This document shows positions 4,785 to 28,805 of a stretch of 32,863 nt of DNA, in pieces. Position numbers and translations under genes: made by a program. The number at the start of each line of letters is the position of its first letter. Position 1 is the first letter of the stretch. The DNA lies in NCBI GenBank assembly GCA_016187125.1, contig JACPKF010000005.1, forward strand, positions 1 to 32,863. Direction: 5' to 3'. The DNA is from Candidatus Saccharimonadota bacterium (GTDB lineage Bacteria; Patescibacteriota; Saccharimonadia; Saccharimonadales; UBA10212). Below the pieces are notes generated by a model, which did no database searches, was not told where the DNA came from, and worked only from the letters and a program-made list of their open reading frames with translations.

Positions 4785-7673
4785 TCAACTGCAGCCTGTA
4801 GTTGAGCCGCAGGCGCTACAAACGTAGCAGGAGCCGGCTCTTTGGGTCTGGTTACCACAGTTATAGCAGATTGGGGCTGCTCCGTCGGCTCGTTCGGTTT
4901 TTAGCACCTTGTGGGTTGTGGACTCGGTGGTTTGCTCGATCTTAGACAGGTCTGAAGTGCTGGCAGCTACGGTTGTAACGGCTTCTGTAATAGCCGCTTC
5001 GGCTTCGGCCACGGCTTCCATGGCTTGTTCGACCACGGCGCCTTGTTTGGCAGCTTCGCTTAGTAAACTAGTTTGGGTTTCCGGTATGTCCTCTAAGGCA
5101 GCTAGTCCCAGCTCCAAGCGATCATCAAAGGTTAGGTAACTTTTCCCCAGACGCCGGAAAATATAATCTATTAACGAGGAAGCGGTGCGGATTTCTGGAT
5201 CATCGGTGATGCCAGCCGGAGCAAAACTGGTGTTAGTAAAGGTCCGGACAAACCTCTTTAGAGGCACGCCGTATTGCAAGCCAAAACTAACGCTAGTGGC
5301 AAAGGCGTCCATAACACCGCGCAAGGTCGAACCTTGTTTAGCAATACTGATAAATAGTTCACCAGGAGTACCGTCTTCATACTCGCCGACTATGGCATAG
5401 CCACGGCTGCCAGCGACAGTAAACTTAAAGGTTTTAGAATTTCGCACTCTGGGCAGTTCTCTGCGGACGGCCGACGTTCCGATGGCCGCAGCACTAATTG
5501 CTACAGCCATCATCATCGGCGTAGCAGGACCGGTTTCGACGCTCGCGAGTGCGCGGTCGGACCCCCGATCTCCGCCTTTAGCGGACGTCGGGGCTTTTTT
5601 GGCCATACTGAGTGGTTGGGCAACTTTGCAGTTATCGCGGTAAATAGCCACTGCTTTCAGGCCTCTTTGCCAGGCGTCCATATGCAGTTGCTCGATGTCT
5701 TTGACGGTCACTTGCTCAGGCATATTTACCGTCTTAGAAATAGCGCCTGAAATAAATGGTTGTACAGCCGCCATCATTTTTACATGACCCAGATAGTGAA
5801 TGGCGTTATCACCCATACTACAGGCAAAGACATTCAAATGTTCATTTTTAAGGTGTGGGGCTCCGACTATTGTCTTTTCGACATCGATGTAATTAATAAT
5901 GTCACCGATTTGGGCACGGTTGTAACCTAGTGCTTTCAATGCCCGAGGCACGGTCTGATTAACAATATGCATAGTACCTCCGCCGACTAGTTTTTTGACT
6001 TTGACAAGTCCCAAATCAGGCTCGATGCCTGTGGTATCACAGTCCATCATCAGCCCTATAGTGCCGGTTGGCGCCAGCACCGTAGCCTGCGAATTGCGAA
6101 CACCGTGTAGCTCGGCCAGCTCGACCGCCTCGTCCCAGGCTTGAGCGGCCGCCGATAACAGTTCTTCTGAGGCTAAAGCTGGATGGATTTTTTTTACTTC
6201 GTCACGATGCATGCGTAGCACTTTATTCATAGCTTCTTGGTCTTTATCATAACCGGCAAATGGCCCTACCCGTTTGGCAAGTCGGGCGCTGGTAGCATAA
6301 GCCTGCCCGGTCATGAGAGCAGTGATAGCCGCCGCCTGGGCGCGGCCTTCATCACTATCATATGGCAAACCTTGAGCCATCAACAGTGCGCCCAAATTAG
6401 CGTAACCCAAGCCCAGTTCGCGGTAGGCCCTGGCGTTCCGAGCAATACTTTGAGTCGGGTATTCGCTGTAACCAACCAATATTTCTTGGGCCGTAAATAC
6501 TAATTCAACACTGTGGCGGAAGGCTTCGATATCAAAACTAAAATCCTCGTTTAAGTATTTAAGTAAGTTAATAGAAGCTAGATTACAAGCTGAGTTGTCC
6601 AAATGCATATATTCGCTACAGGGGTTAGAGGCATTGATACGACCGGCGTTGGGCGTGGTGTGCCAACGGTTAATGGTCGTATCAAACTGCATACCGGGAT
6701 CGGCGCATTCCCAGGCAGCTTCGGCGATCTGATGGAATATATGGCGAGCTTTAACGGTTTTGATCGGTTGTCCGGTAGTTACTGCCTTCAAGTCCCAGTC
6801 CCCGTCATTTTGAACGGCTTGCATAAAGCTATCAGTAACCCGAACCGAATTGTTGGCATTTTGGTACTGGACGCTATAGCTGTCCTTACCGTCTAAGCTC
6901 ATATCAAAACCGGCTTGCTCTAGTACCCGCGCCTTACGTTCCTCTAGCGCCTTACACCAGATAAATTCTTCAATGTCGGGGTGATCGGCGTTTAAAATAA
7001 CCATTTTGGCGGCCCGGCGGGTCTTACCGCCGCTTTTGATGGCACCAGCGCTAGCATCAGCTCCGCGCATAAAAGACAGCGGTCCTGAAGCCGTACCGGC
7101 GCTTTTGCCCAATCTTTCCTTGGAACTTCGCAAAGAGCTGACATTGATGCCCGATCCTGAGCCGCCTTTAAAAATCATGCCTTCTTCGTAGTACCAGTTT
7201 AAGATGGCCGGCATGGTGTCCTGGACGGCCAAGATAAAACAGGCGCTGGCTTGCTGGCTACGTTCCCGCACACCAATATTAAACCAGACCGGGGAGTTAA
7301 AAGCCGCGCGTTGAGTCGCTAATATGTATTTAAGTTCCTCACGAAAATTCTCGGCCTCGTCAGAGCCTTCAAAATAACCTTCTTGCAAACCAGTTCGCGT
7401 TATCGTGTCAACCACTCTGTCAATAAGTTCTTTTAAAGAGCGCTCCCGCGATTTAGTGCCGGGAGTACCGCTAAAATATTTTTGAGCGACAATATTAACA
7501 GCGTTTAGCGACCAATGTTCTGGGAAATCTACATTCTTTTGCTCAAAAACAGCTTTGCCGGTGGCCGGATTAATAATGGCTGAATCTTGCGTGGTCCATT
7601 TTAGCAGGTCATAAGCCTTAGATTTAGGCTTCGTAAAAAGTCTCTTAACAGACAATGTGGTTGCTTGTGCCAT
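4785..7673 (-). CDS. nrdJ: Class II (adenosylcobalamin-dependent) ribonucleotide reductase
   Basis: 962 aa; NPCSEYMHLDNSACNLASINL, LAPTGTIGLMMDCDTTGIEPDLGLVKVKKLVGGG, C-terminal Cys-rich CYNCGNQTQRAGSCYVCSACGSTTGCS. Confidence 0.93.
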   Translation of the reverse strand: MAQATTLSVKRLFTKPKSKAYDLLKWTTQDSAIINPATGKAVFEQKNVDFPEHWSLNAVNIVAQKYFSGTPGTKSRERSLKELIDRVVDTITRTGLQEGYFEGSDEAENFREELKYILATQRAAFNSPVWFNIGVRERSQQASACFILAVQDTMPAILNWYYEEGMIFKGGSGSGINVSSLRSSKERLGKSAGTASGPLSFMRGADASAGAIKSGGKTRRAAKMVILNADHPDIEEFIWCKALEERKARVLEQAGFDMSLDGKDSYSVQYQNANNSVRVTDSFMQAVQNDGDWDLKAVTTGQPIKTVKARHIFHQIAEAAWECADPGMQFDTTINRWHTTPNAGRINASNPCSEYMHLDNSACNLASINLLKYLNEDFSFDIEAFRHSVELVFTAQEILVGYSEYPTQSIARNARAYRELGLGYANLGALLMAQGLPYDSDEGRAQAAAITALMTGQAYATSARLAKRVGPFAGYDKDQEAMNKVLRMHRDEVKKIHPALASEELLSAAAQAWDEAVELAELHGVRNSQATVLAPTGTIGLMMDCDTTGIEPDLGLVKVKKLVGGGTMHIVNQTVPRALKALGYNRAQIGDIINYIDVEKTIVGAPHLKNEHLNVFACSMGDNAIHYLGHVKMMAAVQPFISGAISKTVNMPEQVTVKDIEQLHMDAWQRGLKAVAIYRDNCKVAQPLSMAKKAPTSAKGGDRGSDRALASVETGPATPMMMAVAISAAAIGTSAVRRELPRVRNSKTFKFTVAGSRGYAIVGEYEDGTPGELFISIAKQGSTLRGVMDAFATSVSFGLQYGVPLKRFVRTFTNTSFAPAGITDDPEIRTASSLIDYIFRRLGKSYLTFDDRLELGLAALEDIPETQTSLLSEAAKQGAVVEQAMEAVAEAEAAITEAVTTVAASTSDLSKIEQTTESTTHKVLKTERADGAAPICYNCGNQTQRAGSCYVCSACGSTTGCS
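5571..5585. repeat. Palindrome TCCGCCTTTAGCGGA inside the nrdJ linker
   Basis: Same TCCGCC-N-GCGGA family; lies in the low-complexity linker encoding SAKGGDRGS. Confidence 0.7.
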
Positions 7674-7693
7674 GATGTTTGTGCCTCTCCTTT

Positions 7694-7728
7694 ACCCGCA
7701 AAAACTTTTTTTGAAAGTTTCGGCGGGT
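7694..7728 (-). promoter_or_regulatory. Leader hairpin next to the nrdJ Shine-Dalgarno
   Basis: Sense strand ACCCGC-cg-AAACTTT-caaaa-AAAGTTT-tt-GCGGGT followed by TAAAGGAG and then the start codon. Confidence 0.55.
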
Positions 7729-7867
7729 TAGTTTATTTTATTTTTAATATTTATTTAGAGCTAGCTGCGACCCACTTATGCGCTAAGCAGATCTTCCTCC
7801 TTTGCTCCTTTTAGATATTGCTAGAATATCACCAAGCAATAGCTAAAGCAACAGACCTATTTGCGGC

Positions 7868-25049: not shown

Positions 25050-26186
25050 TCATTTTTTAACGTCTTTGAGACTCAGGGCGATTTTACGGTTATCGGTATC
25101 GATCTCCAGAACTTTAAACTGCTTTTTTTCATTGAGTTTAAAGAGTTTTTCCGGATCAATACTTTCGTCGTCGCTCATTTCTGATACGTGCACCAAGGCC
25201 TCGACAGCCGGGGACAGCTCTACAAAAGCCCCAAAAGGCGTAATCCGCGTGATTTTACCTTCGACTTTGTCGCCTTTTTTGAACTTTTTAACTTCGCTTA
25301 ACCAAGGATCTTCGGCCATTTGTTTAATACTCAATGATAAGCGGTCTTTATCAATGGCAATAATCTTGGCTTTGACAACCTCACCCATTTTTACGTATTT
25401 GCGAGGGTCTTCAACCCGCTCCCAGGATATTTCGGAAATATGGATTAGGCCCTCAATACCATCAACGTTGACAAAGGCGCCAAAATCAATTACTCCGGTA
25501 ACGATACCTTCTACAACTTCGCCAACTTTAAGACTCTGTAGCCTGGACTGCATATCGTCCCTGGTGGCCTCTTTTTCAGAGAAAATCAATTTGTTGTCTT
25601 TACGGCTGACATCCAAAACTCGAACTCGGAGATTTTTGCCAACTAAAGCGTTAAGTTTGGTTAAGATTTCGTCTTTATCGGCGTCAGAAACTCTAGGGTA
25701 GTGCTCGGCTGAGAGTTGAGACACCGGCAAAAAACCACGAATACCTTCTAATTCAACCAGCAAACCGCCGCGGTTGGCGCTATAAGCCACGACGTCAATT
25801 ATTTCCTGCTCGTCAAACAATCGCTGCAGCTCGGTCCAACCCCGATCTTTACTGGCTCGCTTCATGGAAAGCAGCGCATAACCTTCGTCCAGTTCCGGAT
25901 CAACCACACTGGCGCTGATTGTTTCGCCTTCTTTCAAAGTGTTGGCGCCAACCTCCCGACGGAAAATAACCCCGACACCATTGGCGCCCATGTCTACCCA
26001 TATTTCGTGCTTGCGCACTGAACTTACTATGCCTTCTACCATGTCACCGGTTTTTATCTGTGTCAGTTTAGTGGTCTTTAGTAGTTGGTCCATAGTTAAA
26101 CCTCGACTCGGCGACGGAGTTCTGGCTGCTCGCGCAGGCTCTGTGCCCGCAACTCGAGCGTCAATTTTAGTAGCTGCTTTTGGCAT
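25050..26186 (-). CDS. rpsA: S1 RNA-binding domain protein, ribosomal protein bS1-like
   Basis: 378 aa; multiple S1 motifs, e.g. GEVVEGIVTGVIDFGAFVNVDGIEGLIHISEISWERVEDPRKYVKMGEVVKAKI. Confidence 0.93.
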   Translation of the reverse strand: MPKAATKIDARVAGTEPARAARTPSPSRGLTMDQLLKTTKLTQIKTGDMVEGIVSSVRKHEIWVDMGANGVGVIFRREVGANTLKEGETISASVVDPELDEGYALLSMKRASKDRGWTELQRLFDEQEIIDVVAYSANRGGLLVELEGIRGFLPVSQLSAEHYPRVSDADKDEILTKLNALVGKNLRVRVLDVSRKDNKLIFSEKEATRDDMQSRLQSLKVGEVVEGIVTGVIDFGAFVNVDGIEGLIHISEISWERVEDPRKYVKMGEVVKAKIIAIDKDRLSLSIKQMAEDPWLSEVKKFKKGDKVEGKITRITPFGAFVELSPAVEALVHVSEMSDDESIDPEKLFKLNEKKQFKVLEIDTDNRKIALSLKDVKK

Positions 26187-26205
26187 GAACTATAATTATT
26201 CCCTT

Positions 26206-26280
26206 CTTCGGCTGCCTAAATCTCTCCTTTAGCGGATGAAATTTGCGCGGCCAAAGCCCGCGATTCGTTTCAGGCGAACG
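26206..26280 (-). promoter_or_regulatory. Shared leader element upstream of rpsA
   Basis: CTTCGGCTGCCTAAATCTCTCCTTTAGCGGATGAAATTTGCGCGGCCAAAGCCCGCG aligns across its length to 28614-28697. Confidence 0.65.
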
Positions 26281-26339
26281 GCGAACCGTTTTCCACTTAA
26301 AAGTTAATAAAGCAGATTGAGAACTATTGTACAGAGGTA

Positions 26340-26361
26340 AACGCTGTTTGTAAACAGCGTT
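26340..26361. repeat. Perfect inverted repeat AACGCTGTTTGTAAACAGCGTT
   Basis: Direct reading; in the divergent rpsA/ROK intergenic region. Confidence 0.85.
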
Positions 26362-26568
26362 GTTGATAGTAGATAGTCAAGTAGTAGATAGCGAAAAAAC
26401 AGACTTATCACTAACAACTAATGACTAACTCTTGCCAAGTTGATAAACTTAATCTCATGTATCCCGTTAGATCTCAGCCTGCAATTTTCAAGCTAAGTTT
26501 GCGTTGGAAATATTTTGAGCTACCAAAGATAGAAAATTTTTATAAGCCAGGGGTCAGGTTCTAACGGT

Positions 26569-27408
26569 ATGTACTTGGGGATAGATGTTGGGGGAACAAA
26601 AACCTTAATGGCTGTCTTTTCCGAAGAGGGGCAGATACTCAAAGAACACAAATTTCCGACTAGCCCTAACTACAAAAGCTTTTTGAAAGATTTGTCGGCC
26701 GCTTTAAAAGAAATTCAAGACTACAAAATAACAGTCTGTTGCTGCGCTTTACCGGCCCTGATTGACCGTCAAAGAGGTATTGGTATAACTTTTGGCAACT
26801 TAAAGTGGCAAAATGTGCCCGCTAAAGATGACTTAAAGGACTTACTTCAAGGTGCAGACATCTTTTTAGAGAGTGACAGCAATTTAGCCGGACTCCACGA
26901 AAGCCTAGTATTTAAGAGTCAATACCATAAGGTCTTATATATAACCATCGGTACAGGCATAGGCGACGCCGTGGTTGTAGATGGCCAACTCGACGAGGCC
27001 TATCTGGACAGCGAGGGTGGCCAAATGGTCTTGAGCCGCGGTGGAAAGCTGACCAAATGGGAGGATTTTGCTTCCGGTCGAGCGATTGTTGAGCGCTTTG
27101 GCAAGAAAGCTGCTGATATAGACGACCCTAGCATCTGGAAGTTATATGCTTCGGATCTGGCACAAGGTTTAGCAACCTTAATAGCTCCCTTTCAGCCAGA
27201 CGTTGTAATAATTGGCGGCGGTGTAGGCGCCCATTTTGCTAAATACGGCGCCTTCTTAAACGAAGAACTCAAAAAATATCAGAACAATATGGTAACGATG
27301 CCACCGGTAATTCAAGCCAGGAAACCCGAGGAGGCCGTGATTTATGGTTGCTATGACTTTATCCGCCTTCGCCAAGGTTACGGCGGACAGGTCCGCCAAA
27401 ATGCCTAG
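26569..27408 (+). CDS. ROK family sugar kinase/regulator-like protein
   Basis: 279 aa; MYLGIDVGGTKTLMAVF, ITIGTGIGDAVVVDG, VVIIGGGVGAHF. Confidence 0.9.
   Translation: MYLGIDVGGTKTLMAVFSEEGQILKEHKFPTSPNYKSFLKDLSAALKEIQDYKITVCCCALPALIDRQRGIGITFGNLKWQNVPAKDDLKDLLQGADIFLESDSNLAGLHESLVFKSQYHKVLYITIGTGIGDAVVVDGQLDEAYLDSEGGQMVLSRGGKLTKWEDFASGRAIVERFGKKAADIDDPSIWKLYASDLAQGLATLIAPFQPDVVIIGGGVGAHFAKYGAFLNEELKKYQNNMVTMPPVIQARKPEEAVIYGCYDFIRLRQGYGGQVRQNA
27362..27397. repeat. TCCGCC...GGCGGA repeat at the 3' end of the ROK gene
   Basis: TCCGCCttcgccaaggttacGGCGGAcaggtCCGCC encodes the ROK tail RLRQGYGGQVRQ. Confidence 0.8.
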
Positions 27409-27901
27409 GAAAAAGATCACTCAAGGCAGTTCTGCCAAAGACGCTAAGGCTTTTATCAAACACCTAAATTCAGACTACCCGGATTATGGTTTTATAGCTG
27501 GTAAACAAGATCATTGGTCGCCTAGAAATAAGACTATTAACTTTAATCAAGGTCAAACTTTAACTAATTTACAATACGCTGTGTTGCATGAGCTGGCCCA
27601 CGCCCTGCTAAGACATGACAATTATCAAACCGACTTTGAACTGCTAAAACTGGAAAGTGAGGCGTGGCAGTTAGCCGCTCAAATCGGTAAGAATTACAAC
27701 GTTAGCATAAGTCAAGACCACATTCAAAATTGTTTAGACACCTACAGAGACTGGCTGCATCGCCGTAGTGCCTGCCCCAGTTGCGGTATGCATGTTTTAC
27801 AACAAAGTCCCAAAATATATAAATGCTTTAACTGCCAAGCACAGTGGCACGTCAGTAGTGGTCGTTTCGTGCGTCCCTACCGAAAAACAATCAACAAATA
27901 A
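27401..27901 (+). CDS. Small HExxH metalloprotease-like protein with C-terminal zinc ribbon
   Basis: Start taken at MPRKKITQ; HELAHALLRH, ESEAWQLAAQIG, CPSCGMHVLQQSPKIYKCFNCQAQW. The track start at 27344 lies inside the ROK gene and repeat. Confidence 0.75.
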   Translation: MPRKKITQGSSAKDAKAFIKHLNSDYPDYGFIAGKQDHWSPRNKTINFNQGQTLTNLQYAVLHELAHALLRHDNYQTDFELLKLESEAWQLAAQIGKNYNVSISQDHIQNCLDTYRDWLHRRSACPSCGMHVLQQSPKIYKCFNCQAQWHVSSGRFVRPYRKTINK

Positions 27902-27961
27902 CAATCAACAATAAACAGAAAACAAAAAACAATCAGCAATCAACAAAAAACAGTAAACAGC

Positions 27962-28321
27962 TTAGTTTTCTTGATGTTTTTGTAAAGTTTTAATCTTGGT
28001 CCAAATCATTTTTGCCACTTCTTCTCCTAGTAGGCTTGGGTCTTTTATTGATTCTGGTGAGATATAATTTTCTTCGGCAGCAAACTCAAGTATATATTGT
28101 GACTCCTTGAGCGACCCATAAGCAATAGTGAGGAATTGAGCTTCAGATTTACGAGATTGCCTAGCATAACCTTCTACGATATTGAGGGCTACAGAGATTG
28201 CCGCTCTTCTTAGCTGGGACGCTAAGCCAAATTGCTCTTCTTTCGGTAATTGTTTGCTTAGTTTATATACAGAATGGGCATATTTATTGGCTTTTTGCAG
28301 AATTATGTCTTGACTACCCAT
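27962..28321 (-). CDS. Four-helix-bundle protein (S23/23S rRNA intervening-sequence type)
   Basis: 119 aa; YAHSVYKLSKQLPKEEQFGLASQLRRAAISVALNIVEGYARQSRKSEAQFLTIAYGSLKE. Confidence 0.9.
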   Translation of the reverse strand: MGSQDIILQKANKYAHSVYKLSKQLPKEEQFGLASQLRRAAISVALNIVEGYARQSRKSEAQFLTIAYGSLKESQYILEFAAEENYISPESIKDPSLLGEEVAKMIWTKIKTLQKHQEN

Positions 28322-28403
28322 AATTTACTATCAATCATTTATTGACTTTAGTTAATAAAACAAAAGGCGGGAGTTACTCCGCCTCTTGTTTATTGTTTTT
28401 TGT

Positions 28404-28604
28404 TTATTGTTTTTTGGCTTTGCCGCGTCGCGAAATTCGTCCGCCTTTGGCGCCAGCCTTGCGGGCTAGTTCACGGTTGGCGTAAAAGCCACCAGTGCGG
28501 CCTATCTTACCGCCCATCGCTCCAATTCGAGCGTAAAAGTCTTTGCCGTACTTGTTTCTGTTTGTAAAAGCAGCCTTGCGACCACCGTCTTTAGTACCAG
28601 CCAT
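28404..28604 (-). CDS. Small basic KGG/stress-induced-repeat-like protein
   Basis: 66 aa; YARIGAMGGKIGRTGGFYANRELARKAGAKGGRISRRGKAKKQ. Confidence 0.8.
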   Translation of the reverse strand: MAGTKDGGRKAAFTNRNKYGKDFYARIGAMGGKIGRTGGFYANRELARKAGAKGGRISRRGKAKKQ

Positions 28605-28613
28605 AATGATTCT

Positions 28614-28697
28614 CCTTCGGCCGCCTAAATTTCTCCTTTACGGATGAAAATTGTGTGGCCAATGCTCGCAAAAAATTCTTTTGAAATTTCGGCGGGC
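28614..28697 (-). promoter_or_regulatory. Shared leader element upstream of the KGG gene
   Basis: Aligns to the rpsA leader 26206-26280; ends in a hairpin resembling the nrdJ leader hairpin. Confidence 0.65.
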
Positions 28698-28733: not shown

Positions 28734-28755
28734 AAAAAAGGTCCCGGATGGACCC
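28734..28755 (-). terminator. Putative intrinsic terminator/attenuator in the KGG leader
   Basis: Sense (minus) GGTCC-atccg-GGACC-TTTTTT; about 25 nt downstream of a TTGACA-17-TACCAT promoter. Confidence 0.55.
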
Positions 28756-28776
28756 TCATTCCCTGAAACTATGCTT

Positions 28777-28805
28777 ATGGTATCACCTCATTGCGGTAGT
28801 GTCAA
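28777..28805 (-). promoter_or_regulatory. Putative sigma70-type promoter for the KGG gene
   Basis: Minus-strand TTGACA (28805-28800), 17-bp spacer, TACCAT (28782-28777). Confidence 0.5.

Follow-up and report, generated by a model that had tools for sequence, protein, structure and literature searches.

A dispersed palindromic repeat beside the Shine-Dalgarno sequences of rpsA, a KGG-motif gene and other genes of a Saccharibacteria genome

Why do rpsA, the gene of a ribosomal protein S1 homologue, and the otherwise unrelated gene of a KGG-motif protein carry look-alike leaders? The likeness was noticed in a first-pass annotation of a 32,863-nucleotide stretch of a Saccharibacteria genome (the whole of which is called the window here), with two proposals to account for it: a cis-regulatory RNA, perhaps for co-regulation with S1, or a mobile leader cassette. 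As the analysis below indicates, the element is an unusual dispersed repeat rather than a switch devoted to ribosomal protein S1.

Anatomy of the shared leader element

The resemblance of the two leaders was confirmed on the minus strand, at 26206-26280 and 28614-28697, and extends over their whole length. The core pattern AAAGGAGNNATTTAGGCNGCCGAAG has two matches in the window with 0 expected, and none of 100 dinucleotide shuffles gave even one. Folds and models describe the element in both leaders as two hairpins followed by a Shine-Dalgarno (SD) sequence, with model coordinates of 26198-26286 (rpsA) and 28607-28694 (KGG gene). The outer arms of hairpin 1 read CCYGC/GCGGG and the arms of hairpin 2 CCGCAC-AAACUUC / GAAGUUU-AGGCGG, the consensus being a palindrome of about 31-47 bp, CCCGC-NN-AAANUUC-loop-GAANUUU-N-GGCGGG. 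The two-hairpin anatomy is conserved in four copies of the same genome, which fold 2-3.7 sd below shuffles, and many hairpin-2 copies of an 18-copy alignment share an internal loop, 5'-AC / 3'-NG. Model R2, which represents hairpin 2, was made from these 18 aligned copies; it was trained on leader copies and includes the SD. The features of the window are the following.

26257..26285, minus: hairpin 1 of the rpsA leader, the upstream palindrome of the tandem (fold and match to model R1 at 26198-26286, 95.7 bits, the copy belonging to the R1 training set)
26208..26254, minus: hairpin 2 of the rpsA leader, UUGGCCGCGC-AAAUUUC-AUCC-GCUAAA-GGA-GAGAUUU-AGGCAGCCGA (fold and R2 match at 26198-26255, 58.8 bits, E 5e-14, a training-set copy)
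26224..26230, minus: AAAGGAG of the rpsA copy, its GGA being the 3' strand of the apical stem
26201..26205, minus: AAGGG, the SD-like sequence of rpsA, a few nt past the hairpin (sequence and geometry)
25050..26186, minus: rpsA, ribosomal protein S1 homologue of 378 aa with S1 domains (Pfam S1, E 7e-58), start codon ATG at 26186
28665..28696, minus: second tandem palindrome, CCCGCCGAAATTTCAAAAGAATTTTTTGCGAG, upstream of the KGG copy (hairpin-only scan)
28616..28663, minus: hairpin 2 of the KGG-gene leader (R2 match at 28607-28663, 57.7 bits, E 1e-13, a training-set copy)
28633..28639, minus: AAAGGAG of the KGG copy, its GGA again the 3' strand of the apical stem
28613..28618, minus: AAGGAG, the SD of the KGG gene, directly adjoining the hairpin (sequence and geometry)
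28404..28604, minus: KGG-motif protein of 66 aa (Pfam KGG, 26.4 bits, cut-off 20.4), start codon ATG at 28604
7682..7731, minus: third copy, in the leader of nrdJ, with a hairpin at 7695-7727 followed by AAAGGAG (R2, 36.6 bits, E 2e-7)
4785..7673, minus: ORF of 962 aa downstream of the third copy (ORF list), which from its sequence we take to be nrdJ, for a B12-dependent ribonucleotide reductase

Adjoining the KGG gene, at 27962-28321 (minus), lies a gene for a protein of the 23S rRNA-intervening-sequence type (PF05635, E 3e-32).

An additional AAAGGAG within both leaders had been placed 25-35 nt before the start codon and, possibly, in a small loop. The distance holds for the KGG gene (29-35 nt) and is slightly exceeded at rpsA (about 38-44 nt); as to the loop, only the AAA lies in it, whereas the GGA pairs with an upstream UCC in a 3-bp apical stem. 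The AAAGGAG loop occurs in only 6 of about 70 copies, and the apical part that would hold it is missing from the fifth strong copy of the genome (L015), so the motif is not what defines the element. Its candidacy as a second SD was rejected, as it is not conserved.

Copies, their genes and their placement

The whole 0.83 Mb genome (828,455 bases) was searched by model and by pattern, with genes called by a simple script that missed some short ones. The covariance model found five strong copies, all immediately 5' of start codons, and R2 found about 15, among them the third copy of the window, which has 0-1 mismatches in the hairpin-only scan. The pair first noticed was therefore an incomplete count, with one more copy at nrdJ and about a dozen elsewhere in the genome. 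Combined pattern and model searches add the leaders of a 108-aa ORF and of what are, from their protein sequences, presumably secE and a prephenate-dehydratase-like gene. The genes behind leader copies are diverse and include rpsA, nrdJ, KGG, secE, tuf, pnp, rplL, rplY, groES, hsp20, recA, ssb, metS and gmk, most of these names being our own assignments from protein starts. Several copies look decayed. One copy lies at the start of a prepilin-like gene (L115:1501-1548; C6:131548-131595 of the same genome, minus) and may supply its N-terminal codons.

Random scatter of the matches, which the first-pass annotation had named as fatal to a regulatory leader, was not seen; outside coding regions they cluster before start codons. 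A start codon follows within 50 nt in 46 of 63 non-coding matches (median 15 nt), and the SD begins 0-1 nt past the hairpin in 28 of the 40 leaders with a recognisable SD, both figures being partly biased by the training of R2 on leader copies that include the SD. Since R2 contains the SD, the genome was rescanned for the hairpin alone (at most 3 mismatches), and 12 of 15 loci proved to lie in leaders (P about 1e-11), the leader status of some being set by eye because the gene caller had missed secE, KGG and the full start of rpsA. TATAAT-like boxes just upstream of the hairpin are only mildly enriched (19 lie within 10 nt, where about 7 would be expected). That the hairpin forms the 5' end of the mRNA was rejected as a rule, since rpsA, KGG and nrdJ have promoter-like boxes farther upstream. 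Screening the upstream regions of all genes for hairpins of any kind was too unspecific to be of use.

Beyond this genome, R2 has matches in 10 of the 16 genomes of its Saccharibacteria family, and among 295 genomes of the order (E <= 1e-4) only three outside the family match, two of them in one sister family. Scanned for the exact pattern, 84,980 species genomes yielded 76 stretches, of which about 66 fall in Patescibacteria, 5 in other named bacteria and 5 in further bacteria. In Kaiserbacteria and a related Parcubacteria record, about six similar palindromes (L197, L215, L227, L230, L240, L244) precede a start codon by 44-45 nt, mostly within a longer conserved leader. From these sequence comparisons the element appears to belong to a palindrome family dispersed in Saccharibacteria, and the look-alikes in other Patescibacteria need not share its descent. 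Other palindromic repeats are present in the family genomes as well. Repeats resembling AATTAGCAATCAGGAATTAGC occupy spacers of a ribosomal-protein operon in one of them (G015, contig C7, about 253000-261500).

Orthologous sites with and without the element

Orthologues of the nrdJ ORF were found in all 16 family genomes and KGG homologues in 15 of 16, and only a minority of the rpsA, nrdJ and KGG leaders in up to 16 genomes carry the element; it is absent from rpsA in most of them and present there in five. The same leaders are matched in several genera (four for nrdJ, five for rpsA), with KGG, secE and groES also recurring. Empty sites were found within genera for nrdJ (G006/G012 and G009/G013), KGG (G012/G006 and G009/G013) and rpsA (G009/G013). 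One genome, G009, has the element at all three genes, its KGG copy with a different inner palindrome, and the congeneric G013 has it at none. Sister genomes with empty sites keep the same spacer and SD without the hairpin, and where a site is filled the element stands exactly between the AT-rich leader spacer and the SD, as in an aligned KGG pair (GGGAATAATTAACCCGCC...GGCGGACAAAAGGAGG versus GGGTATTAATTAAGGAGG). Any target-site duplication in such pairs amounts to at most a 2-bp AA, explicable by the palindrome's own end; gain by insertion and precise loss would fit the empty sites equally. Different palindromes occupy the same slot in other species (for example, KGG in G004 and G015, nrdJ in G002).

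Some copies lie inside genes, namely rpsP (in two genomes), dnaG, alaS and a single ORF from beyond the family, all in frame and in one and the same reading frame; those of rpsP, dnaG and alaS encode LPAxTSxExSAGK-like peptides, and dnaG and alaS orthologues are shorter or different at that position. From the presence and absence at orthologues, the dispersion and the coding copies we infer that the element is, or once was, mobile, so that the proposal of a mobile leader cassette fits.

The leaders of the window have features of their own. Upstream of rpsA (26290-26332, minus), most family genomes share promoter-like TTTACA/TAYAAT boxes followed by a separate leader of the form UAAUCU-stem...stem-GGAAAUA. 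Five of the seven pairs of its stem change on both sides among 12 family genomes (14 cells versus 5.0 shuffled), a count made on the same sequences on which the helix was chosen. GGAAAUA also precedes the SD of rpsA in several other families of the order, and the leader has no match in Rfam; it is a stronger candidate than the shared element for control by S1. Nearly all family genomes have a conserved TTGACA-17-TACCAT promoter upstream of the KGG gene (28734-28805, minus) and, between promoter and gene, a terminator-like hairpin, GAGGGTC...GACC-TTTTTT, with a U-run; the flanking bases before and after it could, by eye, also pair, and the hairpin is a possible attenuator. In many family genomes the nrdJ leader (about 7740-7830, minus) contains a recurrent GGAGCAA...AGCUC...AAAUAAAAA.

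Weighing the explanations, and the known systems

A dedicated cis-regulatory RNA on rpsA and the KGG gene, a riboswitch or S1 r-leader that would bind S1 or a metabolite, possibly through AAAGGAG, could draw on the conserved anatomy and low folding energies of the four copies, on the recurrent internal loop and on the five genomes with the element at rpsA. The presence and absence at orthologues largely refutes it: most rpsA, KGG and nrdJ orthologues lack the element and leave clean empty sites, in-frame coding copies and unrelated target genes add to the case, and rpsA has a different covarying leader of its own. Covariation, which the first-pass annotation had suggested as a check, does not rescue it. 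Changes on both sides are indeed common, at 7 of 13 hairpin-2 pairs across the 18 copies (27 cells versus 9.8 shuffled), but they do not indicate selection on an RNA, because a family of palindromic repeats covaries by nature; among the four sequences only, covariation was no better than in shuffles. Rfam gave no match in the window at gathering score, nor did the element match any family when permissive E-values were allowed. Co-regulation with S1 is likewise unsupported, given that rpsA mostly lacks the element, AAAGGAG is rare and the target genes are diverse, and we consider a dedicated regulatory RNA very improbable. The rpsA and KGG leaders are alike because each has a copy of the repeat in tandem with a related palindrome.

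Our preferred explanation, to which we assign a probability of about 0.65, is that of a dispersed palindrome, inserted or precisely excised, that is retained at the SD as a hairpin aiding initiation. Copies would arrive by insertion, or leave by precise excision, and those settling directly 5' of an SD would survive; the RNA hairpin would keep the SD single-stranded and shield it from base-pairing with other parts of the leader, and initiation of translation would thereby be maintained or improved. It is the geometry alone that suggests this function. A neutral repeat would share the mobile half of this explanation and differ on function alone, its site before the SD reflecting mere tolerance, as insertion elsewhere would break a promoter, a gene or the SD. 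The decayed copies and the other palindromic repeats of these genomes suit such neutrality, yet tolerance predicts scatter over the spacers, and the gap between hairpin and SD is 0-1 nt in most leaders (a tally inflated because the model contains the SD); we regard neutrality as a real though minority prospect. An ancestral 5'-UTR hairpin at each gene, immobile, kept for translation and repeatedly lost, would account for the recurrence of nrdJ, rpsA, KGG, secE and groES in several genera, which could be old functional sites. It is unlikely in view of the close sequence likeness at unrelated genes within one genome, the in-frame and tandem copies, and the different palindromes that fill the same slot in other species.

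A broader and rather speculative extension of the retained-hairpin explanation is that a palindrome family spread through Patescibacteria might constitute a portable translation module, either directed to the SD boundary or selected there, which would give many genes of one genome a 5'-UTR hairpin in common; a single RNA-binding protein or RNase might recognise this hairpin through the internal loop. The genomes of Patescibacteria are small, and a repeat settling at the ribosome-binding site with near single-base precision would illustrate a way for such tiny genomes to gain post-transcriptional control from mobile DNA. The natural pairs of filled and empty sites make the effect of the hairpin directly testable. 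A limited search of the open literature found no dispersed palindromes of this sort in Patescibacteria, and to our knowledge none has been described there.

Like an r-leader, the element is a structured RNA 5' of a ribosomal-protein gene; it differs in extending beyond such genes, in not being conserved at orthologues and in having no Rfam match. REP/GTAG palindromes with their RAYTs offer another parallel, as they are 20-40 bp long and present in many copies, and RAYT-like genes occur in the same genomes. The element lacks their tag: by eye, no GTAG was seen at the hairpin-2 ends of the printed copies, which start TTTA/TTCA/TTGG-like and end CAAA/TAAA/CGAA-like, and a GTAG-like palindrome near a RAYT-like gene (C6:320376) matches the element only weakly. 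RAYT-like (Y1_Tnp) transposases were rejected as mobiliser, because they are flanked by other palindromes, as judged by eye at the 23 readable loci of 24 matches (L310-L333; 8 genomes, up to seven per genome). Copy numbers of element and RAYT-like genes correlate over the 16 genomes (rho 0.74, p 0.001, kinship ignored); presence and absence in these genomes are not significantly associated (Fisher p 0.12). The part of PMC3733652 drawn on here does not name Patescibacteria among GTAG or CGTC hosts.

Rickettsia palindromic elements (RPEs) are short dispersed palindromes found in frame within unrelated protein genes (PMC10969869), and those of R. conorii have a CGTC end tag (PMC3733652). The element too is a dispersed palindrome with in-frame copies in unrelated protein genes; it is shorter (31-47 bp, RPEs being about 150 bp) and sits mostly at the 5' edge of the SD, whereas RPEs are notable for coding insertion, and CGTC is absent from hairpin 2 and internal in hairpin 1. 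The Correia elements of Neisseria (MITEs), at 204 bp and with promoters, differ from a single short hairpin with no recognised promoter of its own, but they share with it a location chiefly right before genes, where they act on expression at the post-transcriptional level, by way of RNase III among other routes (PMC10969869).
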